Of a stretch of 38,101 nucleotides of DNA, positions 8,225-19,771 are shown in pieces; position 1 is the stretch's first letter; every line of letters starts with the position of its first letter. The translations under genes were made by a program, and so were the position numbers. The notes beneath the pieces are model-generated. The model worked only from the letters and a program-made list of their open reading frames with translations, ran no database searches and was not told the DNA's origin. Origin of the DNA: an uncultured Curvibacter sp. (GTDB lineage: Bacteria > Pseudomonadota > Gammaproteobacteria > Burkholderiales > Burkholderiaceae_C); the NCBI GenBank assembly GCA_903902035.1, contig CAIUTG010000131.1, positions 1 to 38,101 of the forward strand, read 5' to 3'.

Positions 8225-9862
8225 TCATTTGCGGCCCAACAACTCCGCCCCACCCCCCATGGCCGGACCTGCGGTCGGATCCACATAGTCAGGCTTTTTG
8301 GCAATCAGGGTCTGGGTGGTCAGAATCAGGCCGGCGACAGACGCTGCGTTGCGCACAGCGCTGTAGCTGACCTTGACGGGATCGATGATGCCAGCTGCCA
8401 CCAAATCTACAAAATGGCCGCTGCGGGCATCCAGCCCGACACCCGGCTTGGCCGCCCCCGTTTTGCGCTTTACATCCTCGGGGTCCAAGCCGCAATTGGC
8501 GGCGATGTGGTGCAAGGGCTGTTGCAACGCCCGTTGCAGCAATTTGACCCCCTCACGCACATGGCCTTCGTGTGAATCGGCCAACTTGTCCAGCGCATTG
8601 GCCACGCGGAAAAGCGCCAACCCACCCCCGGGCACCACGCCCTCGGCAATGGCGGCACGCGCCGCGTTGATGGCATCCTCAATCAAGTGCAGTCGGCGTT
8701 TTTGTTCCACCGGTGTGGCGCCGCCAGCCAGCAAGATGGCCGTGCCACCAGACAACTTGGACAAGCGCTCCCGAATTTTGTCGCGCTCGATGTTCTCGGG
8801 TGCCAGCTCAAATTGCCTTTGCACCTGTTGCCGCCGCGCCGCGACCAGGGCCGGGTCGCCGTCCCCCGCAGTCACAACGGTCTGGCTGGATGAAATGCGC
8901 ACGTGGCGCGCACTGCCCAAGTCGCGCAGCTGGACTGCTGCGATGCTGCCGCCCAGATCGCGCGCAATCACCCGCCCCCCCGTGAGAATGGCCAAGTCTT
9001 CCAGCGCGGCCTTGCGCCAGTGACCATATTCAGGCGGATGGATGGCCGCCACCGGTGCGCCCCCCTTGTCGCGCCAAGCCAGCAAGCTCACGATACAGGC
9101 CGGGGCAACTTCTTCGGCGATGATCAGCAAAGGCCGTTTGGAGTCGGCCACCAACTTGATGATGGCCGCAACCTCATCCGGCGTCTGCAATCGCTGGTCG
9201 GTCATCAGGATGTAGGGGTTGTCCAAGAGCACCTGCATCTTTTCGACCTCGGTGATCATGTGGTGCGACAAATAGCCCCGGTCAAAGGCCATGCCATCCA
9301 CCACCTCCAGCAGTGTCTCAACGGTGCTGCCATTGGTGACATCGACAATGCCATCCGCGCCCACCCGCTCCAACGCCTCGGCGACCAAGTGCCCGGTGGG
9401 CTCGTCATTGGCGGCCACCACGGCCACCGCCCGCAACGCCTCGCCACTGCGCAGCGGTGTGGCCACGCTTTTGAGTGCGGTGACCACCTCGGCGACAGCA
9501 AGCTCCAAGCCCTCCACCAGTTCAACGGGGTTGGCCCCCCTGGCCAAACATGCCAGCCCGTCCTGAACCAAGGCATCTGCCAGGACCGTGGCGGTGGTGG
9601 TGCCATCGCCTGCTATTTCATTGGTCTGTTTGGAGACTTCGCGCACAACCTGTGCGCCCATGTTTTCAAACGGATCCTCCAGCTCGATTTCAGCGGCAAT
9701 GCTGACACCGTCGCGCGAGATGATGGGCGTGCCAATGGGCCGGTCGATGATGGCATTCATGCCACGTGGACCCAGCGTGCCGCGCACAGCCCGCGCCAGC
9801 TTGGCAACCCCACGGCCGAGGGCTTGGCGCGCTTCGTCGTCGTGCAACATGATTTTGGGCAT
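8225..9862 (-). CDS. mimG: GroEL-like chaperonin of the monooxygenase cluster (MimG type)
   Basis: A 545-residue group I chaperonin paralogue. ATPase residues are preserved: TLGPRGMN, the DGVSIA loop, GDGTTTATVLA, LIEDAINAAR and EGVVPGGGLALF. It departs from housekeeping GroEL in lacking the GGM-repeat tail (it ends PAMGGGAELLGRK) and has no groES next to it. Chaperonin-like MimG and PrmG proteins are known to be needed for functional production of the mycobacterial and Gordonia binuclear iron monooxygenases, and the location four genes after mimABCD fits this role. The start at 9862 has AGGA 8 bases upstream; a longer in-frame extension to 10243 overlaps the DUF59 gene and lacks family similarity. 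Likely client: the MimA hydroxylase subunit, in the cytoplasm. Confidence 0.9.
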   Translation of the reverse strand: MPKIMLHDDEARQALGRGVAKLARAVRGTLGPRGMNAIIDRPIGTPIISRDGVSIAAEIELEDPFENMGAQVVREVSKQTNEIAGDGTTTATVLADALVQDGLACLARGANPVELVEGLELAVAEVVTALKSVATPLRSGEALRAVAVVAANDEPTGHLVAEALERVGADGIVDVTNGSTVETLLEVVDGMAFDRGYLSHHMITEVEKMQVLLDNPYILMTDQRLQTPDEVAAIIKLVADSKRPLLIIAEEVAPACIVSLLAWRDKGGAPVAAIHPPEYGHWRKAALEDLAILTGGRVIARDLGGSIAAVQLRDLGSARHVRISSSQTVVTAGDGDPALVAARRQQVQRQFELAPENIERDKIRERLSKLSGGTAILLAGGATPVEQKRRLHLIEDAINAARAAIAEGVVPGGGLALFRVANALDKLADSHEGHVREGVKLLQRALQQPLHHIAANCGLDPEDVKRKTGAAKPGVGLDARSGHFVDLVAAGIIDPVKVSYSAVRNAASVAGLILTTQTLIAKKPDYVDPTAGPAMGGGAELLGRK

Positions 9863-9917
9863 GGTATTTTTTTCCTTGAGTGATTCGTTAAGTGGTTTGA
9901 GCAAAAAAAGGCCTGAT

Positions 9918-10691
9918 TCAACTGCGACAAAGCCCCTCTCGTCGCACGATGTGGATGGGCTGCTGACCTTGCGCACGGTCCCGCACCGCCAGCAGCCCCC
10001 GGCACAGAGCGCCGTTGAACTCCGCATTGATCCCGACTCGGCGCGCTTCGCGCAAATGGGCCAACAAATCAGCTGCGGCGATGGCCTGCCCTTCGGTGTC
10101 GACAAAAGCCAGATCGCCGCCACCCACCAGACCGCGCCGCGCCAAATAGCGGTCCACCAAGCCCTTGTCTGCCGCGCTGAGCGCCAGCTGCTGCAGGGCC
10201 GAGATGTTGAGCGCTGCCAGAGCAACCGGCTCATGCCCCGCATCGATCAAATGCTGGAGCAAGGCTTCCTGGCGGCGCTGAAAGGCCTTGAGCAAAAAGG
10301 TTCGGCGCAAGGTCTCCAGATCGCCCTCGGCCGCCGCGCCAAAGGTGGCCTGAAAACCGCGCCCTTGGGCCACACCCTGGTTGATGGCCTCGGCATACAT
10401 GTGGTCATCCAAGCGCACCTGAACCTGGGTCACCCAGGGCAAGGACTGCACAGCGCGGCTCATGTCATCGGCCATCAGAAAAGCGAAGTTGGCGGCACAC
10501 CAGTAAGTCGGCAAACGAAAACCGATCCGCACCCCGCCATCCCCAGCCAGCTCAATCAAGGTGACGAAGCCCAACTCGGTCACCGACTCATCGAGCTCTG
10601 GATCCACCACCGTGGCCAAGCAAGCTTGCACCTGCGCCATGCGCTCAGCGGTCTCGCGGGCGTCGGTGGTGGGGTCGGCGTCTTGGTTCAT
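9918..10691 (-). CDS. DUF59/MIP18-type iron-sulfur assembly-like protein of the monooxygenase cluster
   Basis: A 257-residue protein. Residues about 20-110 resemble the DUF59/MIP18 (SufT/PaaD-like) domain, with VDPELDESVTELGFV and a single conserved-looking cysteine in PTYWCAANF. Residues 110-257 are alanine- and leucine-rich, probably helical, and I do not recognise them. DUF59 proteins act in Fe-S or other metal-cluster assembly; in propane-type monooxygenase clusters a homologue commonly sits between the amidohydrolase and the chaperonin. The ATG at 10691 overlaps the amidohydrolase stop (TGATG), which points to translational coupling. A role in maturing the diiron hydroxylase or the reductase [2Fe-2S] centre is inference. 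Confidence 0.75.
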   Translation of the reverse strand: MNQDADPTTDARETAERMAQVQACLATVVDPELDESVTELGFVTLIELAGDGGVRIGFRLPTYWCAANFAFLMADDMSRAVQSLPWVTQVQVRLDDHMYAEAINQGVAQGRGFQATFGAAAEGDLETLRRTFLLKAFQRRQEALLQHLIDAGHEPVALAALNISALQQLALSAADKGLVDRYLARRGLVGGGDLAFVDTEGQAIAAADLLAHLREARRVGINAEFNGALCRGLLAVRDRAQGQQPIHIVRREGLCRS

Positions 10692-11710
10692 CAAGCCGCC
10701 CTCGCCATTTTCTCCTTCGCCAGCAAACGCTTTTGCGCCGCGATGTCGATGCCATACAGCCGCGCTGCATTCAGTCCAAGGATTTTTTTCTTGGCTTCCA
10801 GGTCGAGCACGGCCCCGGTTTCGGCAGCAATGCCAGCCGGCAGCTCGAAAGCCATGAAGTCCTCGACCAGCCAATCGGGCGTCCAGATGCCATAGTCGCT
10901 GCCATACAGCAACTTGTCTGGCCCCAGCCACATCAGCAATTGCGAGATCACATGGGCGAAATATTTCGGCTGCTTGCGGATGAAGGGCAGCGCCACCGCC
11001 AGGCCCCCGTAAACATTGGTCTCCTGGGTGGCGATCCAGCAGAAGTCGTCCAGCCGGGGCAGGCCACAGTGCTCAATGATGAAGTTCAAGCCCTGAAAGT
11101 TGGTGGCGGCAATGTCCACATCGGCCACGTCAAAAGCGTCTCGGTCCAAGGGCAAAATGGTCGGTCCTTTGTGGACATGGATGTTTTTCACACCCAGTTT
11201 TTCTGCCAGCGCCAGGTACCGCTCGGTCCAGGGATCGCTCAGCTTGTAGCCCCGGCTGGCGTCCTTCCATTCCGCCGTATAGAGTTTGACACCCTTGAGT
11301 TTGTGGGTGGCGGCCAGCTCTTCGAACTTGTCCAACCCGGCCGCCCCATCGCGGGGGTCAAATGCACCGTTCAGAATGAACCGATTCGGGTGCTGGGCCT
11401 TGAGCACCGCATTTTGTTCAGTGGTGTTGAAGCCCTCGACATAAAAATCTTTCAGATAGGTTGGCTGAAAGATGGCCATGTCATCGTAGCCATCCACGAA
11501 CAGATCGCGGTAAAGCTGCTCACCGCCATAGCGATCGAATTTTTCACGCGGCCACAGTTTTTCTTTGGGGCTCAGAAAGCTGTGATAAGCGTAAAAGCAG
11601 TTGATGAACTGCTCGCCGTGCACGTTTTTTTGATTGGCCTTGCGTCCGTCCCAATTGTGGACATGGCCATCAATGATGAAAATCTCTTCGCCGGAAGCCG
11701 TTTTGAACAT
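10691..11710 (-). CDS. Amidohydrolase-family (amidohydrolase_2) protein of the monooxygenase cluster
   Basis: A 339-residue TIM-barrel metal hydrolase of the amidohydrolase_2 (ACMSD-like) type. Metal ligands are visible: the HxH pair in IDGHVHNWDG (His16, His18), His in KNIHVHKGP, His in NFIIEHCGLP and Asp in LLYGSDYGIWTPDW. The family includes decarboxylases and lactonases acting on metabolic ring or acyl intermediates. A homologue is a regular member of mim/prm-type clusters, but its reaction there is not established to my knowledge. The start at 11710 has GGAGA upstream; it lies 18 bases after the coupling-protein gene and overlaps the DUF59 gene, so it is co-transcribed. It may process a downstream metabolite or serve assembly; sequence alone does not decide. 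Confidence 0.82.
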   Translation of the reverse strand: MFKTASGEEIFIIDGHVHNWDGRKANQKNVHGEQFINCFYAYHSFLSPKEKLWPREKFDRYGGEQLYRDLFVDGYDDMAIFQPTYLKDFYVEGFNTTEQNAVLKAQHPNRFILNGAFDPRDGAAGLDKFEELAATHKLKGVKLYTAEWKDASRGYKLSDPWTERYLALAEKLGVKNIHVHKGPTILPLDRDAFDVADVDIAATNFQGLNFIIEHCGLPRLDDFCWIATQETNVYGGLAVALPFIRKQPKYFAHVISQLLMWLGPDKLLYGSDYGIWTPDWLVEDFMAFELPAGIAAETGAVLDLEAKKKILGLNAARLYGIDIAAQKRLLAKEKMARAA

Positions 11711-11728: not shown

Positions 11729-12094
11729 TTATGCGTGCGCGACAAAGGCCATGACTTCATCCATGTTGCCAAACAGCACCACGGTGTTCTCGTCAATCGT
11801 GACCATGCGGCCGTAATGGGTGGAGGTGGCGATTTCGAAGGTCTGCGCCGTGATTTCACGGCCCAGCGCTTCGCTGATTTCGTCCATCTTGAATTCGATC
11901 TTGCCCTCGCCGTCAATGCGGATCATGGCCGGCAGGTAGGTCACCCGGATGCCCGGTTTGGTCGCCATCAGCTCGGCGATGGCCCGCGCTTCCACGCTGT
12001 CGTTCATCGTGACGCCACATTGGTGTGAGATGGTGTCTTTGAATTCCAGGTCTTTGAAGGACTGGAAAATGTTGTCGTTGACTTTGGCTGACAT
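11729..12094 (-). CDS. mimD: Monooxygenase coupling/effector protein, MmoB/DmpM family
   Basis: A 121-residue protein of the MmoB/DmpM family. These small, cofactor-free proteins bind the hydroxylase and tune substrate access and oxygen activation at the diiron site. Family features include the N-terminal FQSFKDLEFKDTISHQCGV segment, VRVTYLPAMIRIDGEGKIEF-like core strands, and EISEALGREITAQTFEI near the centre. AGGA lies 7 bases before the ATG at 12094. It is the fourth gene of the structural set, in the order large hydroxylase, reductase, small hydroxylase, coupling protein, which is the prm/mim order rather than the thm order. Confidence 0.92.
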   Translation of the reverse strand: MSAKVNDNIFQSFKDLEFKDTISHQCGVTMNDSVEARAIAELMATKPGIRVTYLPAMIRIDGEGKIEFKMDEISEALGREITAQTFEIATSTHYGRMVTIDENTVVLFGNMDEVMAFVAHA

Positions 12095-12123: not shown

Positions 12124-13221
12124 TCAACGGGCGACAGAGGTCGTGATGGAGGCCGGCATTTGCAGGCCAATCTGGCTAACGATGTTTTGCAGACGCTCAA
12201 TGGCGCCCTCATAGGCATCGCTGAATTTGGCAACCTTGTTGTGCGGCAGCGACCAAATGGGCTGCAGGTTTTTGGCTGCCGTGACGGCCAGTTCACCGTA
12301 TTTCTTCAGCCAGGTGTTGAACAAGCGAATGTTGTGCGCCGCGTGCTCGGGGTCAGAGACCAAGATGTCCATCAGCTCGATCGAATTGGCCAGATTGCGC
12401 TGATAGTCGCCTTCCGCCGATGACACCACCGTGGGGGTGAGAAAGTCATTCTGGGCAGCGGCTGCTTGCATGAAAAAGCCGCTTCGGATCAGCTCCCCAA
12501 CCATGGGCTCAAACACCATGTTGACCGCAAAGTATTTTTCCAGGTAGTCGGTGGCGCCGCCGATGGTCTCGACCAGTTTGCGGGTTGGCTGCCAGATGGG
12601 GTCTTCCAGCCATTGCTTCTTGCCGATTTCTGCATCAAAGCCAGGAATGTCTTGGCCAATGTCTCCCAAATACAAGGTGATGTCTTGTGCAAAGCGCAAC
12701 TTGTAGGAGGAGTTGGTGAGGATCGCGGAGTTGATCATCTGGGTATAGCCGTAACGTTGGGCGTGCATCAAGGCGGTGCCCATGCCGAATTCAGCGTGCT
12801 TGTAAGCGCCCAGGTGCTTCTCCAGCACCTTGACCCAGGTCTTGTCAAAACGGGCTGGCGCACCGGCCCGGCGCGCATTCTCTACCGCCTGCGAGATCAT
12901 GCCGATGATGGTCGACTGGCGTTGGTAATGGGTGCGCTCCCACTCTTCATCAATCGAGCGGTATTTGTGCCAATCGGATGAACGGGCGGCCGTCCAGGTT
13001 TCCGAATAGGTGGGCGTGCCATCACCGAAGGAAATGATCCAGTTTTGCAGCAGATACCGTTTGGGGTCGGGCTGCACATCGAGCGTCATGTCCTCGTAGT
13101 GCGTCGCCTTGCGGCCCTTGGGGGTGAAGTAGTTGTACTTGCGGCTGTCCCAGCCAACAAATTTTGCAGAGCCGGCAGCACCTGTGGGCCGCGTTGTCTG
13201 TTCAGCAGTGGTTTGGTTCAT
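12124..13221 (-). CDS. mimC: Diiron monooxygenase hydroxylase small (beta) subunit
   Basis: A 365-residue all-helical subunit of the soluble diiron monooxygenase hydroxylase, ferritin-like fold without the full set of iron ligands. It shows the family segments WRSIDEEWERTHYQ-like (here YRSIDEEWERTHYQRQ), HLGAYKHAEFGMGTALMHAQ and AQDITLYLGDIGQDIPGFD. It pairs with MimA in the hydroxylase dimer of heterodimers and contacts the coupling protein. GGAGA lies upstream of the ATG at 13221, 20 bases after the reductase gene. The family covers methane, phenol, toluene and propane enzymes; gene order and partners here favour the propane/phenol MimABCD type. Confidence 0.92.
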   Translation of the reverse strand: MNQTTAEQTTRPTGAAGSAKFVGWDSRKYNYFTPKGRKATHYEDMTLDVQPDPKRYLLQNWIISFGDGTPTYSETWTAARSSDWHKYRSIDEEWERTHYQRQSTIIGMISQAVENARRAGAPARFDKTWVKVLEKHLGAYKHAEFGMGTALMHAQRYGYTQMINSAILTNSSYKLRFAQDITLYLGDIGQDIPGFDAEIGKKQWLEDPIWQPTRKLVETIGGATDYLEKYFAVNMVFEPMVGELIRSGFFMQAAAAQNDFLTPTVVSSAEGDYQRNLANSIELMDILVSDPEHAAHNIRLFNTWLKKYGELAVTAAKNLQPIWSLPHNKVAKFSDAYEGAIERLQNIVSQIGLQMPASITTSVAR

Positions 13222-13241: not shown

Positions 13242-14300
13242 TTAGTGAACGAGGTCCAGCGTGTTGCTCGCCTGGATGAATTTGTCTACATGGGTGTGCT
13301 CGGGTTCGACGCCCAGGACTTGCAGCACGGGCAGCACGGCATCGATCATGGGGGGGGGGCCGCAGGTGTAAGCGTCAATCTCTCCAGTCAACTTTTGTTG
13401 ACGCAAAATGCGTTCAACCGCTTCATGGACGAAGCCCGTCTCACCTTGCCAGTCCTCATCGTCCGTGGCATGTGAGAGCACGGGAATGAACTCAAAGTCG
13501 GTGAGCTTGGCGGCAATGGCGGCCAACTCTTCTTGGAAAAACAGGTCCTTGCGTGTGCGGGCGCCGTAGAAAAAGCGAATCGGACGTTGCTCACCGCTGG
13601 CGATGTGGTCGTGCAGAATCGACCACAAGGGGGACATGCCTGAGCCGCCCCCCACCAAGACCATGGGCCCAGGCCGACCTTCGCGACGGAAGCAATTGCC
13701 GAATGGCCCCTTGATCTTCAACGGCGTACCCGGTTGCAATGTGGTGTCCACCAAAGATGAAAAAGCACCTTGGGGATACTTGCGAATGATGAAGTGAAGC
13801 TTGTCCGGTGTGCCTTGGGTGCTGGCCATGGAATAGGAGCGCGTCACGTCGGCACCCGGCACCGTCAATTCCACATACTGACCTGCCCAAAATTTAAGGG
13901 GCTGCGCCAGCTGGACTTCAAGCAGGCGAATGTCGTGCGTCAAGGTCGTCACACGACTCAAGACACCGTCGAACTCCTTGACGGCAATCGAACGCCGCAT
14001 CATGTCTTCGTCGTAATTCAACAGCTCGACCGTCAGATCGCTGAAGGCATAGGTGCGGCACAGCAGCACATGGCCACTGTCGCGCTCGTAATCCGGCAGT
14101 GCGAAGGTGGAGTATTGCGACACCTCCGCATCCCCTTCAATCAACAGACATTTACAACTGCTGCACCGGCCCTCACGACAACCATGCGGTATCGCAATGC
14201 CTTGGCGAAACGCCGCGTCCAGCACCCATTCACCTTCTTCAACTTCCATCTCTACGCCAACGGGTTCGAGGCGCACTGTGTGCGTTGGTTTTTCAGCCAT
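13242..14300 (-). CDS. mimB: Monooxygenase NADH oxidoreductase with [2Fe-2S] and FAD domains
   Basis: A 352-residue electron-transfer subunit. The N-terminal plant-type ferredoxin domain binds a [2Fe-2S] cluster through Cys41, Cys46, Cys49 and Cys81 (HGCREGRCSSCK). A flavin domain follows with RSYSMAS, then an NAD-binding domain with GGGSGMSPL and the C-terminal CGPPPMID. It passes electrons from NADH through FAD and the cluster to the hydroxylase. The ATG at 14300 has AAGGA at good spacing; an overlapping GTG at 14303 is the alternative. A run of ten C on the coding strand (13350-13359) encodes the three prolines of CGPPPMID. A perfect hairpin lies between mimA and this gene. Confidence 0.92.
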   Translation of the reverse strand: MAEKPTHTVRLEPVGVEMEVEEGEWVLDAAFRQGIAIPHGCREGRCSSCKCLLIEGDAEVSQYSTFALPDYERDSGHVLLCRTYAFSDLTVELLNYDEDMMRRSIAVKEFDGVLSRVTTLTHDIRLLEVQLAQPLKFWAGQYVELTVPGADVTRSYSMASTQGTPDKLHFIIRKYPQGAFSSLVDTTLQPGTPLKIKGPFGNCFRREGRPGPMVLVGGGSGMSPLWSILHDHIASGEQRPIRFFYGARTRKDLFFQEELAAIAAKLTDFEFIPVLSHATDDEDWQGETGFVHEAVERILRQQKLTGEIDAYTCGPPPMIDAVLPVLQVLGVEPEHTHVDKFIQASNTLDLVH

Positions 14301-14330
14301 CACTGTCCTTTGCTGTGTTCAGGTACTGCG

Positions 14331-14377: not shown

Positions 14378-16045
14378 TCAAATGGGGTTGATCTTGAAAC
14401 CCTTGCGGTACTCGGCGGCCGCCTTTTCTCGGCCCTGTGGTGTCAACTCACGGAAGCCTCGCAAAGGACTGGCCAAGGTGTAGCCCTTGACATGGTCCAG
14501 GGTCCACATGTCCTTGTCGTTGAAGCGCAAGTGGGGTTGTGAGATCAAGGTCTTGCCGTCAGAGCGGACAAAGCCCAGGTCCTTGATGGCGTCGGCCAGA
14601 TCCCAGCCGTGGTAGCAGTCCTCCCACTCGCGCCGTCCGCTGAAGCGGCCCATCGCTGGTGTCGCACGACCTTCGTACTCGGCGGCAAAAGCCACCTTGT
14701 GGGTCCAGCGGCACAGCTCGGAGCAATAGGTGTAGACCTGACCATCGACCTCGTCGTAGCAGAAGTCTTCGCGGATCAGGCACGGCACCATGCAGCTCCA
14801 GCAACGGTGCGGGTAAACATAGCCGCACTCCTGGTCGAACAACATATTGGTTTCACCAGGCACGCTCTTGCGTGCGTACCACTTCCAGTAGTCGCCGAAC
14901 TCGGCGTACCAGCCCGGGTACTTGTGCTCAAACCACTCAAAGTCTTTTTCGGTCTGGGCCTCAATGCGCCAGAAGTTGACAGGCCAGCCGACCGAGAAGA
15001 ACTGAGCCACTTTGTGCACATAGTTTTTCTTGACAAGCCGGTCCCAGGCCGCACTGACATCGTCGTGGTGAATCTTCACGCCGTATTTTTCCAACGGCAA
15101 CATGTAGGTGCGGTAATAGTCCTCATAGATCCAGCGGTGCCACAACTCGACATAAGACTCCTTGTTTTTATCCCGGTCGGTGGTGCCGTACTCGATGAAG
15201 GTGCCGATGGCGGCGTCCACAATCGCGTGGTTTTGCCAGAAGGCGTAACGAATATCTCGTTCCAGCAACAGGTGGTTGTCGGGATCGTTGATCACCGACA
15301 TCAACAAAGAGTGCCCATTGCCGATGTGACGTGATTCGTCCGACTGCACCGACAAGAAGACCGAAGACAGGGCGTAATCGCCATTGCGTGCGGCCTCTGA
15401 AGGCATCGCCACAAACAAGGTGTTGGTGAAGGCGGTTTCAGCCACCACCTGCAAATAGATATTGGCAGCCGTCAGGGCATCGCCGGTGAGGAACCCTTCG
15501 GCGAACTGGCGGCCGATGGTGGTGGCATAGCATTTGCCAAAGGCCGCTTCGGTGATGTCAAAGCCAGCCGGGTCAATGTAGTTTTCCATGTACCACTTCT
15601 TCAGGTTCATCTGAATCGTGGAGTGGCGGAACTCGTCCACCATCTGCATCGTGAAGCCCGTGCGCAGCTCCTCACCCGGGGCCAAAGCCGCCAGCATGGA
15701 CATCGAGCGGGCCGCCGAAATTTCAGGGAAAGGAATGATGGCCAAGAACAACTTCATCCACTCCACCCAGCGGGGCTGGGTGTTGCGAAACATGTCGCCA
15801 CGCAAGGCCGCATCCAACGCGCCGTAGACGCGATTGTCTTTTTCTTCCTGCATGGGGAAGTAAGAGCGCAAGACCTGTTTCATGGGGTCGCGCGGGGCCT
15901 TGGTGATCTTGTAGTCGGTCGGGAAGGTCATCGCTTCCTTCACGTAGCTCGGCTGCCAGCCGAGATCGGCGATGCGGCGGGCCGCTTCGGCAATGGGTAT
16001 CCCTTTCTGGGAAGTAATCTTGTTGAGTGTCAAACCTACAGACAT
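14378..16045 (-). CDS. mimA: Diiron monooxygenase hydroxylase large (alpha) subunit, propane/phenol MimA/PrmA type
   Basis: A 555-residue catalytic subunit. The carboxylate-bridged diiron ligands can be placed with the same spacing as in MmoX: Glu108, Glu138-x-x-His141 (VDEFRHS), Glu203 (VVAETAF) and Glu237-x-x-His240 (SDESRHIGNG). The enzyme uses O2 and electrons from the reductase to hydroxylate a small hydrophobic substrate. The C-terminal part carries a Cys-rich YHS-like metal-site region (Cys407, 415, 418, 422, 429, 441, 445), typical of the propane and phenol subgroups and absent from methane monooxygenase. The ATG at 16045 has GGAGA upstream. A sigma-54 promoter about 75 bases upstream and two palindromes drive the operon. 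The substrate (propane, acetone, phenol, other) cannot be read from sequence. Confidence 0.94.
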   Translation of the reverse strand: MSVGLTLNKITSQKGIPIAEAARRIADLGWQPSYVKEAMTFPTDYKITKAPRDPMKQVLRSYFPMQEEKDNRVYGALDAALRGDMFRNTQPRWVEWMKLFLAIIPFPEISAARSMSMLAALAPGEELRTGFTMQMVDEFRHSTIQMNLKKWYMENYIDPAGFDITEAAFGKCYATTIGRQFAEGFLTGDALTAANIYLQVVAETAFTNTLFVAMPSEAARNGDYALSSVFLSVQSDESRHIGNGHSLLMSVINDPDNHLLLERDIRYAFWQNHAIVDAAIGTFIEYGTTDRDKNKESYVELWHRWIYEDYYRTYMLPLEKYGVKIHHDDVSAAWDRLVKKNYVHKVAQFFSVGWPVNFWRIEAQTEKDFEWFEHKYPGWYAEFGDYWKWYARKSVPGETNMLFDQECGYVYPHRCWSCMVPCLIREDFCYDEVDGQVYTYCSELCRWTHKVAFAAEYEGRATPAMGRFSGRREWEDCYHGWDLADAIKDLGFVRSDGKTLISQPHLRFNDKDMWTLDHVKGYTLASPLRGFRELTPQGREKAAAEYRKGFKINPI

Positions 16046-16119: not shown

Positions 16120-16135
16120 TGCGATTCGCGTGCCA
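16120..16135 (-). promoter_or_regulatory. Sigma-54 (-24/-12) promoter of the monooxygenase operon
   Basis: Read on the minus strand the site is TGGCACGCGAATCGCA. It matches the consensus TGGCACG-N4-TTGC at all positions except one (TC for TT), and the GG and GC doublets have the exact spacing. The predicted start is near 16110, leaving a leader of about 65 bases before the mimA ATG. The cluster encodes its own sigma-54 activator. Confidence 0.8.
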
Positions 16136-16238: not shown

Positions 16239-16274
16239 GGGAATTTCACAGGGTTCCCTCCGACGCCACCACGT

Positions 16275-16308
16275 GAAAAAGCCCCACCGACCCAAAGCCG
16301 GTGAGGCC
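16275..16308 (-). terminator. Intrinsic terminator after the dehydrogenase-CobW-WD40-65-residue unit
   Basis: Minus-strand arms GCCTCACCG and CGGTGGGGC (plus-strand positions 16299-16307 and 16281-16289) pair over nine positions with one G-T pair, followed by TTTTT. It lies just after the 65-residue gene and upstream of the mimA promoter region, so it separates the two units. Confidence 0.8.
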
Positions 16309-16333
16309 CCTGTTTGAGGGATCCCATCCCGCG

Positions 16334-16531
16334 CTAATCGGCGGGCGTGGTGGGGCTGTTGGGCGCCTCGGCCGATGCCGCCTCGCGCGATTGACGTTCG
16401 GCGATGAAGCGGGCCGCGAGCACCAAGGCACCCATGGCAAAGTCTTTGCCATGGGCCGCAATCATCGCGTCCGAAACCTGTGCCAATTGCTTGAAAAATT
16501 CGTCCTTGCTGCTTTGTTCTTGGTCGCTCAT
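16334..16531 (-). CDS. Uncharacterised 65-residue protein
   Basis: I do not recognise this protein. It has an acidic-polar N-terminus ([13 protein letters not shown]), a central amphipathic to hydrophobic helical stretch (AMIAAHGKDFAMGALVLAARFIAER) and a low-complexity Ala/Ser/Pro/Thr tail. There is no cysteine, no signal peptide and no clear membrane segment. The evidence that it is real is translational: the ATG overlaps the WD40 stop as ATGA, AAGGAGA lies 7 bases upstream, and a terminator follows. It is the last gene of a unit with alcohol dehydrogenase, CobW GTPase and WD40 genes under a sigma-54 promoter. A small partner of the WD40 or CobW protein is a plausible guess. Confidence 0.7.
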   Translation of the reverse strand: MSDQEQSSKDEFFKQLAQVSDAMIAAHGKDFAMGALVLAARFIAERQSREAASAEAPNSPTTPAD

Positions 16532-17646
16532 GAGGCGGTCTCCTTGGTGTGATGGGGGGTTGTCTGGCGGCTGCGAAACAGCGCTTCTGGCAACAACAGC
16601 CAGCCGAACATGCCGTCCTGGGTGCCGAATGCCAGGCGGTTGCCGTCGCTCGACCAAGCCATGGCATTGACCGCACCGCCACCGGCACCTTTGATGAACA
16701 ACACCTCATCGCGGCCCGGCTGACACAACAGCAGCGCGCCGTTGTGATAACCCGCCGCGATCAGCGATTGCTGCGGATGACAGCTGACACAGCTCACCGG
16801 CGTCTTGCTGGCCATGGCGCACTCCCTTGGTTGCTCGGCGGCACCGGGGGGGTCAAAGCCCCAGCAAACGGGCCGTGTGCTGCCACTGGTGACAAGGTAG
16901 CGACCCTCCGCTGCGAACGAAAGCGACAGTGGTTGCCCAGGGTAGCCGCCCATTTCCATGTCGCCTGCATCGGCCACACGCCAGCCATGCAGCGCGTTTT
17001 CCTGCATGCCGGTGACGAGGTAGCGGCCGTCCGGACTCCAGGCCAATGCGCGGTGATAACCGGGCCAAACCAGGGTACGCAGCTTGGCCCCTTCCTGCCA
17101 CAGCGTGACCCCCCCGCTGTGCGCCATGGCCAGGCTGTGCTTGTCTGGGCCGAAGCCCATCGCCGTGACGGGTGCCGGCAAATCAATCGCTTCGCCATGG
17201 TCCCGTGCCACGCAATAGACGCGCTTGCCACTGGCATGGGCACGCCAGCCAGAAGGGCTGCAAGCCACGGCCGTGATCCATGCACCACGCACATGGCTCA
17301 GGATCGTCGGTGCGCCACTGCGCGGCACGTGCACCACACGCCCGTCATCGCCCCCACTGACAAAGCCACCCGCCGCGTCGGCCGCCAGGCTCAGGCAGGC
17401 CCCTTCATGACACGCGACGCGCTGCGGCTGTGGTGGCGGCGCGGCCGCCGGCGTCACCGCCACGCCCCCATCGGACCGGCGCGCAAGGTGCGGACCGCGC
17501 AGCCAACGCGCTTTGACGAGCGCCAGCTGCCCATCACCCAAAGCAAAAGCGACGGTGTCCCCGTCCACATCCCAGGCCAGCGCGACTACCGGCGCTTCCA
17601 ACGTCCAATGTGTGCCGAGCAGGTCCATCAGAGGCGGGCTGCTCAC
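16528..17646 (-). CDS. WD40-like beta-propeller protein coupled to a CobW GTPase gene
   Basis: A 372-residue cytoplasmic protein made of repeated WD40-like blades, about seven, each near 40-50 residues with short motifs such as [53 protein letters not shown] and [19 protein letters not shown]. No enzymatic domain or signal peptide is seen, so it is probably a scaffold. The start is a GTG at 17646 that overlaps the CobW stop by GTGA, with GAGG upstream, and the end overlaps the 65-residue gene by ATGA. This tight coupling suggests stoichiometric production with the GTPase. Its role is unknown; a platform for metal delivery to the monooxygenase or dehydrogenase is inference from context. Confidence 0.8.
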
Positions 17647-18656
17647 GGTGTGGCCTCACTGACATCGGCTGCACAGTGCGCCAGTTCGGCATTCAATTCA
17701 GCGCCATCCCAGCCATGACCGATGAAGACCAGGCGGGACTCGCGCGCCTCCCCCTCGGCCCAAGGTCGATCCAGGCCGCTGTCGACCGTCATGTGCACCG
17801 CCTGAAAAACGAAACGGCGTGATTCGCCCTCAAAGGCCACAATGCCTTTGGCGCGCAACAGGTCGGCTCCACGCTCGGTCACCAAGCGCTGCAGCCATGG
17901 CAAAAAACGGCTGCGTTCAAACGGCTGCTTGAAACTCAACGCCACGCTGCTGAGCTGGCGTCCCGCGCCACGGCTGTGGCGGCCGGCCTCCACCGGCGCG
18001 TAAGCCCGGGGGCCCGCCTGACCCAACCAGGGCGTGGACACACGCAGCCGGGCCATGTCAAAAGCCCCCCGGTCCAGCAGACTGGAGAGCGCAACATTGC
18101 CATGCACCGCAACGCACATTTCGGCGGTGGGGTTGATCTGCTGCGCGGCCCGCTCAGCATCGGCCAAGGTGGTGGCGTCGGCCAGGTCCGCCTTGTTGAG
18201 CAACACCAAGTCGGCCTGCGCCAGCTGCGCGGCGGCTTCGGGTGCGTCGCGCAGCTGATCGCTGAGGTAGCGCGCATCGGCAACGCAAATGACGCTGTCG
18301 AGCTGCGTGTGTTGGCGCAGCAAGTCGTCAAAGTAAAAAGTCTGCACAATCGGCGCGGGGTCTGCCAAGCCCGTGGTCTCAATCAAAATGCCGTCAAAGC
18401 CGCCGGGGCGTCGCACCAGGGCACTGGCGACGCGAATCAGATCCCCTCGCAGCTTGCAGCAAACGCAGCCATTGTTGAGCTCATAGACCTCCTCCTCGGC
18501 CCCGACAACCAGCGAGCCATCGATGCCGAGCTCGCCGTACTCGTTGACGATCACGGCGTAGCGTCGGCCCTTGGCATCGTGCAAAAGCCGGTTCAACAAG
18601 GTGGTTTTGCCCGCGCCAAGAAAGCCGGTCAGCACCGTCACAGGAATGCGCGCCAT
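17643..18656 (-). CDS. CobW/COG0523-family GTP-binding metallochaperone-like protein
   Basis: A 337-residue G3E-family P-loop GTPase. Walker A is GFLGAGKTT (11-19), the family metal motif CxCC is at Cys64, Cys66 and Cys67 ([12 protein letters not shown]), a Walker B/G3-like segment is IETTGLADP, and the guanine-specificity motif is NKAD. A C-terminal CobW domain covers about residues 230-330. Relatives insert or deliver metals (cobalt, zinc, iron; nitrile hydratase activators belong here). It starts 4 bases after the dehydrogenase gene and overlaps the WD40 gene. Candidate clients in this island are the diiron hydroxylase and the zinc dehydrogenase. The metal is not predictable from sequence, and a zinc-homeostasis protein is the alternative reading. 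Confidence 0.88.
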
Positions 18657-18660
18657 ACGC

Positions 18661-19704
18661 TCAGGGAACCAGGACGGCGCGACCTTTGATCTTGCCGTGA
18701 TGCAGGTCCAGCAAGGCCTGGTTGGCGTCCTTCAACTTGTATTCGCGTGTGGCCAGATGGACCAGGCCACGGTCGGCCAGCGCCATCAGCTCGACCAGCT
18801 CCGGGTAGGTGCCGACCAAATTGCCGACAATGCTTTTTTCGCTGGTGATCATGTCCAGTGTGGGCAGTTCTATTTTGCCGCCATAGCCCACGATGTAATA
18901 GGTGCCGGCGTTGCGCGTCATCGCCAAGCCCTTGGCGACCGCATCCCCTTCTCCGACAAAGTCGATCACGGCCTCTGCACCCTTGCCTTTGGTGAGCGCC
19001 AGCACGCGATCGACCTCATGGCCATCGGCTTTCACCAAGTGGTGGGCGCCGCATTCCTTGGCCAACTGCAGCGCCATGTCGGAGCGGTCCACAATGATGA
19101 TCTCGGCCGCGCACAAGGCGGCCAGCACCTGGATGCCGATGTGGCCCAGACCACCGGCGCCAATCACCACCGCGTACTCGCCGGGCAGCAGGTGGCGCGA
19201 GGCCTTCTTGGCGGCGCGGTAGGCGGTGAGCCCGGCATCGGTGTAGGGCGCGACATCCTTGGGGGCCAGGGTCTTGGGCAGCTTGATCAGCGAGCGCTGG
19301 CCGGTGCGCAGGTACTGGGCATAACCCCCGTCGGCATTGATGCCGGGAAAACGGCTCTCCTCGGCATGCATGTCATCGCCCCGGCGGCAAGCCAGGCAAT
19401 GGCCGCTGGTGACCAGCGGATGGCAGATCACGGGGTCGCCGACTTTCACACCGGTCACGGCGGCGCCCACAGCCTCGACCCAGCCGGCGTTCTCGTGGCC
19501 CATGATGTAGGGCAGCTTGACCTCAACCTGGGTGCGCCAGATGCCTTCCACCACGTGCAGGTCGGTGCGGCATACGCCGGCGCCACCGATGCGCACGATC
19601 ACATCGGTCGGGGTCTCGATTTTCGGGTCCGGTACGTCTTCGTAGCGAACAAAGGCATCGCCACTGAGTGACTCGTTGTATTCGTGCAATACGGCGGCTT
19701 TCAT
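18661..19704 (-). CDS. Zinc-dependent NAD+ alcohol dehydrogenase of the monooxygenase regulon
   Basis: A 347-residue medium-chain dehydrogenase. Catalytic zinc ligands are Cys45 (GVCRTDLH), His70 and Glu71 ([12 protein letters not shown]). The Rossmann motif is GAGGLGHIG (182-190) and the second strand ends in Asp (IIVDRS), favouring NAD+. The structural-zinc loop reads [18 protein letters not shown], with only two of the four usual cysteines. Gordonia and mycobacterial propane clusters carry a comparable secondary alcohol dehydrogenase that turns 2-propanol to acetone; the same role is likely here but the alcohol is not proven. The ATG at 19704 has GGAG upstream; an in-frame extension to 19767 is rejected. 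It leads a unit driven by a sigma-54 promoter at 19772-19786. Confidence 0.9.
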
Positions 19705-19771
19705 GGGAAGGCTCCTGCGGTTCGGATGGTGATTTAAAGGGCTTGGTCTGCCCTGACTCCCCATCACCCAC

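Follow-up and report, generated by a model that had tools for sequence, protein, structure and literature searches.

What do three overlapping genes that stand beside a soluble diiron monooxygenase (SDIMO) cluster do, and which enzyme do they serve? The genes are found on a 38,101-nucleotide stretch of DNA from an uncultured Curvibacter sp. (contig CAIUTG010000131.1; the whole stretch is referred to as the window) and are read on the minus strand. They encode a GTPase of the COG0523/G3E group (17643–18656; 337 residues, with Walker A and CxCC motifs and a CobW_C domain), a WD40 protein predicted to be a β-propeller (16528–17646; 372 residues, GTG start) and a predicted two-helix protein of 65 residues, here called P65 (16334–16531), for which no relative was found in Pfam, NCBIfam or the PDB. 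The adjacent cluster encodes MimABCD, and the protein that we propose to be served is MimA, the diiron monooxygenase α-subunit (Phenol_Hydrox; 14378–16045, minus strand). An earlier inspection of the letters (the sequence-only reading) had taken the trio for a possible metallation module of the monooxygenase. The gene arrangement that it described was confirmed by reading the junctions directly: the stop codon of a zinc-type alcohol dehydrogenase (ADH) gene (18661–19713, minus strand) is followed after 4 bases by the GTPase start (TGA-GCGT-ATG), the GTPase and WD40 frames overlap by GTGA, and the WD40 and P65 frames overlap by ATGA. An AAGGAG site precedes the P65 start.

The trio is interpreted here, at about an even probability, as an accessory (maturation) module that is dedicated to the MimABCD of Proteobacteria and occurs in this locus in its GTPase-bearing form, with the metal and the protein served both presumed. 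The interpretation draws on the gene structure, the linkage to the Mim genes, the conserved gene order, a single GTPase clade and shared sigma-54-like sites. A Mim maturation module is likely; delivery of iron by the GTPase, suggested by analogy with its family, is plausible but unproven, and the module proteins may act as a complex.

The linkage was surveyed with a MimA profile. In named genomes it matched at least 529 relatives, and the survey used the 80 best of these, all at least 81% identical in the best segment. Neighbours were accepted at E<1e-15 for WD40, E<1e-60 for the GTPase and E<=1e-60 for ADH. P65 was detected by profile search in 74 of the 80 loci and elsewhere in the genome for five of the remaining six, giving 79/80; some of these six loci are truncated, either at a contig end or at the 10-kb limit. 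ADH accompanies MimA in 68 loci, the amidohydrolase in 67, WD40 in 48 and the GTPase in 21. Where the GTPase occurs it is always with WD40 and P65, in the order GTPase, WD40, P65, and in 23/23 loci examined (21 of the 80, the window and L026) the start of the WD40 frame precedes the GTPase stop. These GTPase loci belong to Burkholderiales, with one from Zoogloeaceae and three from Rhodospirillales/Acetobacteraceae. P65 is retained in varied arrangements around MimA, being upstream, divergent or downstream. The trio as a fixed, conserved unit was therefore dropped: the GTPase and WD40 come and go, and since only 21/80 loci have the GTPase while P65 is near-universal, the GTPase cannot be generally required. 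On the best reading the unit is redrawn around P65 as the constant part, with the metal-handling GTPase as an optional part.

The tie to a MimA-type monooxygenase, which the sequence-only reading had supposed from this one locus, was also found across genomes. Among 398 genomes of the phylum, MimA (E<=1e-30) was present in five (that of the window, three that belong to a single genus and one whose MimA is fragmentary). P65 was present in the same five, and the 393 others gave one weak match, to 27 residues within a longer frame (Fisher's p 7e-11, uncorrected for kinship). In a 259-genome sample of one family, taken as Burkholderiaceae, a GTPase of this type (E<=1e-80, 59–65% identity) was found in six genomes, all of them among the nine with MimA, and in 0/250 genomes without it; the trio thus does not occur mostly apart from a diiron monooxygenase. 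WD40 relatives (E<=1e-20) were found in 5/300 genomes of the window's order, of which only the window's own has MimA; the other four relatives stand near COG0523 genes. When genome contigs were scanned with WD40 alone, no relative could be confirmed.

Thirteen plasmid records contain P65, 11 of them among the 28 with a MimA-type match; in one of these, from Shinella sp. HZN7, that match spans 63% of the MimA length. The 17 records that have a MimA-type match but gave none to P65 come from Rhodococcus (six), Azospirillum (four), Methylocella (two) and Mycolicibacterium (two), and from Mycobacterium, Nocardioides and Indioceanicola. At least eight of these 17 are less than 60% identical and may be other monooxygenases. 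Of the two P65 records that have no MimA-type match, one, a Phyllobacterium zundukense plasmid, carries WD40 and P65, and in the 24.8 kb read no Mim gene was found except a benzoate dioxygenase reductase that matches MimB. In the other, a plasmid of Rhizobium sp. CB3171 (L150, 7771–10153), P65 and a shortened WD40 frame stand with MimB/C/D and the downstream genes and no MimA; MimB abuts WD40, making this a natural MimA-less cluster. Among the phylum genomes described above, the one with the fragmentary MimA (L146, 6597–10182) has an adjoining P65 and WD40 that are strongly diverged too, as if decaying together.

The window GTPase is a COG0523/G3E member by its domains and motifs, with GTPase activity and metal binding predicted. 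It scores 188.5 bits against PF02492 (cobW; cut-off 20.7) and 87.4 bits against PF07683 (CobW_C; cut-off 22), and lies under the curated cut-offs for CobW proper (TIGR02475; 209.3 bits, cut-off 332.1) and for the ZigA zinc metallochaperone (NF038288; 174 bits, cut-off 600). The CxCC motif is intact, as had been claimed (Cys64, 66 and 67), and is kept together with Walker A in 23/23 Mim-linked GTPases, comprising 21 from the best 80 loci, the window and Caballeronia SBC2. These 23 proteins form one clade (support 100/100) in a tree from which rows with fewer than 250 aligned residues, duplicates and two of the three other COG0523 matches from the window's genome were dropped. Together with four WD40-paired GTPases of non-Mim plasmid loci they make up a 27-row clade (99/92). 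The window protein is 56–79% identical to the other Mim GTPases and at most 49% identical to the non-Mim WD40-paired group, and Cys124, just before the conserved Asp127-Ala128, is present in 23/23 Mim GTPases versus 0/33 others. With this grouping the Mim clade may or may not belong to COG0523 subfamily 5, the tree having been built without reference sequences of that subfamily. Among the window genes identified from ADH to GroEL there is none for zinc uptake, in an analysis that made no search for Zur sites. In both trees the group labelled as WD40-paired zinc loci also takes in four further genomes, the metal context having been read at the plasmid loci. Of the four non-Mim loci, those of Skermanella rosea and Devosia contain zinc-transport genes, that of S. 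meliloti has a creatininase gene nearby, and no metal gene was seen in that of Lichenicola. The pairing of GTPase and WD40 genes recurs outside Mim clusters, and it has been described for one COG0523 subfamily.

The WD40 protein matches PF00400 at 61.9 bits (cut-off 27) and has no NCBIfam match at E<=0.01. Its predicted structure has a mean predicted local distance difference test score (pLDDT) of 93.1 and a predicted template modelling score of 0.91. The best fold matches were chains of TBLR1, Rsa4, ODA16 and Sqt1 (Z 33–38, up to 37.7); among designed propellers the model matched the eight-bladed Tako8 (Z 32.5) better than the seven-bladed v13WRAP-T (Z 26.2). The protein is thus predicted to be a β-propeller closest to eight-bladed ones. 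Rsa4 and Sqt1 are assembly chaperones, a likeness that is used as analogy only. The WD40 tree was calculated after removal of duplicates, two truncated sequences and eleven from Mesorhizobium. In it, Mim propellers from lineages with the GTPase group with those of their relatives that lack it in a clade of 31 rows (99/97), which joins eight non-Mim propellers in a 39-row clade (100/100). The rhizobial and rhodobacteral Mim propellers form a separate 14-row clade (100/100). From this topology, the Mim propellers would reflect either two recruitments or strong divergence.

P65 had no Pfam match in the window scan and no NCBIfam match at E<=0.01. Scattered Pfam matches among its relatives were rejected (the best, PF14355, at 0.00038 and in 2/43 members). 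Against the PDB the best E value was 0.25 for sequences and 6.5 for folds, a weak test with so short a query. The model consists of two helices (residues 3–27 and 29–55; mean pLDDT 84.4), and the invariant residues are Lys9, Met23, Phe31, Gly34 and Ala40. P65 is annotated as a hypothetical protein in nine annotated plasmid loci, and as far as these searches go it appears to represent an undescribed family. In a published figure of SDIMO operons, the legend points out an amidohydrolase, an iron-sulfur cluster assembly protein and hypothetical proteins that it does not name (PMC9213486); P65-like genes may be among the latter.

The sequence-only reading had placed the trio under a sigma-54 promoter like that of the monooxygenase and had ended it at an intrinsic terminator. 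A sigma-54 −24/−12-like site lies upstream of ADH-GTPase-WD40-P65 (19771–19786, minus strand, two mismatches) and another lies upstream of MimA (16120–16135, minus strand, one mismatch). Such matches in the window by itself are at chance level (10 found versus 14.2 expected). In the related loci the sites are enriched, occurring at 59/78 accessory-operon heads (0.04 expected per region) and in 39/87 MimA upstream regions (0.03 expected per region), in loci of common ancestry and hence not as independent counts. The other 48 MimA upstream regions, mostly rhizobial, have no such site in the 300 bases read. The matches across related loci support common control of the accessory operon and MimA. 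Close to WD40 and P65, three rhodobacteral Mim clusters have a gene of their own for what is annotated as an RNA polymerase sigma-54 factor (L021, 15354–16616; L025, 16356–17615; L030, 14354–15640), in keeping with sigma-54-like promoters. After P65, a hairpin at 16265–16320 (minus strand; −26.5 kcal/mol, z −2.85) has a stem followed by T5, as expected of an intrinsic terminator; a generic terminator scanner did not list it.

The choice of enzyme served was examined at loci where the neighbours separate. ADH is present in the stretch read for 17 of the 21 GTPase loci. In the other four (L040, L044, L046 and L065) the trio lies less than 10 kb from MimABCD-GroEL, and ADH, the amidohydrolase and the PF01883 gene are missing from the stretch read. 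An ADH gene was found about 11 kb upstream of the GTPase in L040 (89% identity) and about 150 kb away in L044 (90% identity), each on the same contig; none was found at E<=1e-60 in the genomes of L046 and L065. The amidohydrolase is missing from 5/21 GTPase loci, and a search of the genomes of these four at E<=1e-20, made without a positive control, did not detect it; it is an unlikely protein served. Because the trio stays near MimABCD without them, MimABCD is favoured over ADH or the amidohydrolase, with two to three firm cases. These observations bear directly on the proposal that the GTPase-WD40 pair keeps zinc flowing to ADH (and metal to the amidohydrolase), which we consider less likely and, as an explanation of the locus, rather improbable. 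The 4-base gap after ADH fits it, as do the 17/21 loci with ADH in the stretch read, an eighteenth with it about 11 kb upstream and the zinc-transport genes beside two of the nearest non-Mim relatives. Subfamily 5 COG0523 genes are moreover described as clustering with WD40 and znuABC genes, partly under Zur control, in the sections of PMC2770081 that treat them. However, the two genomes without a detectable ADH, the distance of about 150 kb in a third and the patchy amidohydrolase speak against zinc supply; ADH without the GTPase is also common among MimA loci. The control looks sigma-54-like, Zur sites not having been searched for.

A different view of the same genes is that they regulate and do not mature the enzyme: once the hydroxylase is complete, P65 would serve it as an effector or a small subunit, much as MMOD or a γ-subunit does, and WD40 and the GTPase would tune activity or localization. 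This view is unlikely but deserves some weight. P65 is near-universal with the close MimA relatives while the GTPase and WD40 vary, P65 is modelled as all-helical, and MMOD is portrayed as an auxiliary (inhibitory) protein that binds the soluble methane monooxygenase hydroxylase and rearranges it via a long helix, in the portion of PMC13045389 concerned. Yet the P65 gene of the window sits in the ADH-GTPase-WD40 operon with its own terminator, outside MimABCD, and PDB searches by sequence and by fold gave no relative for P65, as far as so short a query allows. The GTPase might instead guard against mismetallation, removing or buffering zinc so that MimA loads iron correctly. It is related to COG0523 proteins that pair with WD40, of which two lie in zinc loci; this relationship and the clade-specific Cys124 before Asp127-Ala128, which may alter the active region, are compatible with such a guard, but Cys124 may equally be structural, and we regard the proposal as very improbable. 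Still more improbable is a chance or historical neighbourhood devoid of any functional link. MimA loci also occur on plasmids, which could carry passengers; P65 is nevertheless kept across differing arrangements, and genomes without MimA yield one weak match to it.

Several observations weigh against the interpretation as a maturation module for MimABCD. The 80 loci are the best of at least 529 and are biased towards close MimA relatives. Even among them the GTPase is absent from 59 and WD40 from 32, so that neither is generally needed, and Skermanella L028 carries P65 alone. In the stretches read, an actinobacterial cluster (L149) has MimABCD-GroEL without any module gene, and loci on Azospirillum and Methylocella plasmids have MimABCD-GroEL and none of the module. 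The GTPase label requires six changes on a tree of 91 MimA proteins and so marks no single MimA clade. The Mim propellers are not one clade, non-Mim propellers being nearer to those of the GTPase lineages. Where the metal context of the nearest GTPase relatives could be read, the adjoining genes are for zinc and not for iron. No Cys or His of P65 is invariant (9/53 have Tyr or Leu in place of His27). Of the four trio loci that lack ADH nearby, two have it on the same contig, as given above, and in L065 the stretch ends 1 kb from the module.

If the maturation module is nonetheless correct, P65, a helical hairpin and the constant part, would most likely bind the hydroxylase (MimA/MimC) itself or an intermediate in its folding on the MimG-type chaperonin. 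The propeller would be a scaffold for P65 and, where present, for the GTPase. The latter would be an offshoot of a COG0523 line whose genes stand with WD40 genes in zinc loci too, and its CxCC site and GTP cycle could place or proofread the metal, most likely iron, in the hydroxylase; lineages without the GTPase would draw on the general metal supply instead. On the simplest reading of the trees, the Mim cluster acquired the GTPase and WD40 genes together, with two or more losses of the GTPase; both trees are unrooted, and the direction of change is our inference. A bolder version, which we put forward tentatively and think unlikely, makes P65 the founder of an undescribed family of assembly factors that the propane/acetone-type diiron monooxygenases of Proteobacteria cannot do without. 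It would work, in Burkholderiales and in some Acetobacteraceae, with the WD40 scaffold and a dedicated COG0523 GTPase as a GTP-driven iron insertase, a metal-loading machine specific to a soluble diiron monooxygenase that evolved from a zinc-homeostasis GTPase-propeller pair.

The GTPase and the propeller are known kinds of protein in a new setting. How soluble diiron monooxygenases acquire iron, and why many of them are produced poorly in foreign hosts, is an open practical question. A MimG/GroEL-like chaperonin of MimABCD was reportedly described by Furuya et al. in 2013. Like the proposed module it is a dedicated maturation factor of MimABCD, and the window cluster has a GroEL-like gene; unlike the module it acts in protein folding and not on metal, and the trio is additional to it. 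MimG is also named in a passage of PMC7176365. COG0523 proteins have been proposed as metal chaperones or insertases, one being dedicated to nitrile hydratase, and subfamily 5 clusters with WD40, znuABC and creatinase genes, according to the relevant parts of Haas et al. (2009; PMC2770081). The Mim GTPase resembles subfamily 5 in adjoining a WD40 gene and in having non-Mim WD40-paired GTPases and propellers nearest in both trees. It differs in its MimABCD, ADH and P65 neighbours, its sigma-54-like promoter and its own clade, in a comparison from which the reference sequences of subfamily 5 were left out. Nha3, the Fe-type nitrile hydratase activator of COG0523 subfamily 2, is similar in its dedication to one enzyme and in its clustering, as outlined in the same source (PMC2770081). 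The enzyme here is different, and there is no nitrile hydratase among the identified genes from ADH to GroEL, the comparison being one of gene context.

Among other auxiliary proteins, AztD is a zinc chaperone in which a β-propeller takes part in metal transfer and whose gene is often near CobW genes, in the text consulted in PMC6689063. It is periplasmic or at the cell surface, whereas the window WD40 protein has no obvious signal peptide by eye; the two sequences were not compared. MMOD is likewise an auxiliary protein of a diiron hydroxylase, as described in part of PMC13045389; it is absent from the sequence and fold matches of P65, the two not having been compared directly. No match for a COG0523/CobW GTPase or WD40 protein in propane or diiron monooxygenase clusters was found in the open-licence PMC literature searched; the GTPase-WD40 pairing itself is known. 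P65 may be a missing factor for expressing proteobacterial propane monooxygenases, the GTPase clade would be another case, besides the nitrile hydratase activator, in which the partner enzyme of a COG0523 protein can be identified, and the genes make up a small testable set tied to one diiron monooxygenase family.

The remaining genes of the cluster, all on the minus strand, run in the order α-subunit, reductase, β-subunit, coupling protein and chaperonin. The MimB-like reductase (13242–14303) has homologues in the same place annotated as FAD-binding or 2Fe-2S oxidoreductases. MimC, the hydroxylase β-subunit (12124–13221), the MimD-like coupling protein (MmoB/DmpM; 11729–12091) and the GroEL-like chaperonin, of MimG type by position (8225–9868), were identified by Pfam and NCBIfam. 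The amidohydrolase (PF04909; 10691–11710) and the PF01883 (FeS_assembly_P) protein (9918–10775) were identified by Pfam. The window MimA is 62% identical to a plasmid homologue of Rhodococcus sp. JS3073, and we take MimABCD to belong to group 5 of the SDIMOs. The MimD-like protein scores 110.5 bits against the MimD equivalog NF045941 (cut-off 150); it is a diverged MimD, and the name is therefore used for likeness only. The PF01883 domain covers residues 47–120 of a 285-residue reading, the longer C-terminal part having no Pfam match. The eukaryotic cytosolic Fe-S targeting complex comprises the WD40 protein CIAO1, a PF01883 protein and a P-loop NTPase; the likeness to this complex was set aside, since PF01883 and WD40 do not strictly co-occur.

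A short helical-looking gene ('CC') stands before WD40, P65 or the GTPase in 48/80 loci, a position rule having been used for weak matches; examples are L018 (13681–13998), L063 (9155–9529), L021 (13612–13929) and L026 (12632–12979). It precedes WD40 or P65 in 40/59 GTPase-less loci and is present in 8/21 GTPase loci; in the window, ADH and the GTPase lie too close together for such a gene to fit between them. The 'CC' genes are weakly alike across lineages (21–35%), their helical look was judged by eye, and their homology is unproven. Finally, L053, from a record titled Mycobacterium sp. KBS0706, contains an ADH-P65-MimA cluster of proteobacterial type with a MimA 89% identical to the query, and may be a misnamed record or a transferred cluster.

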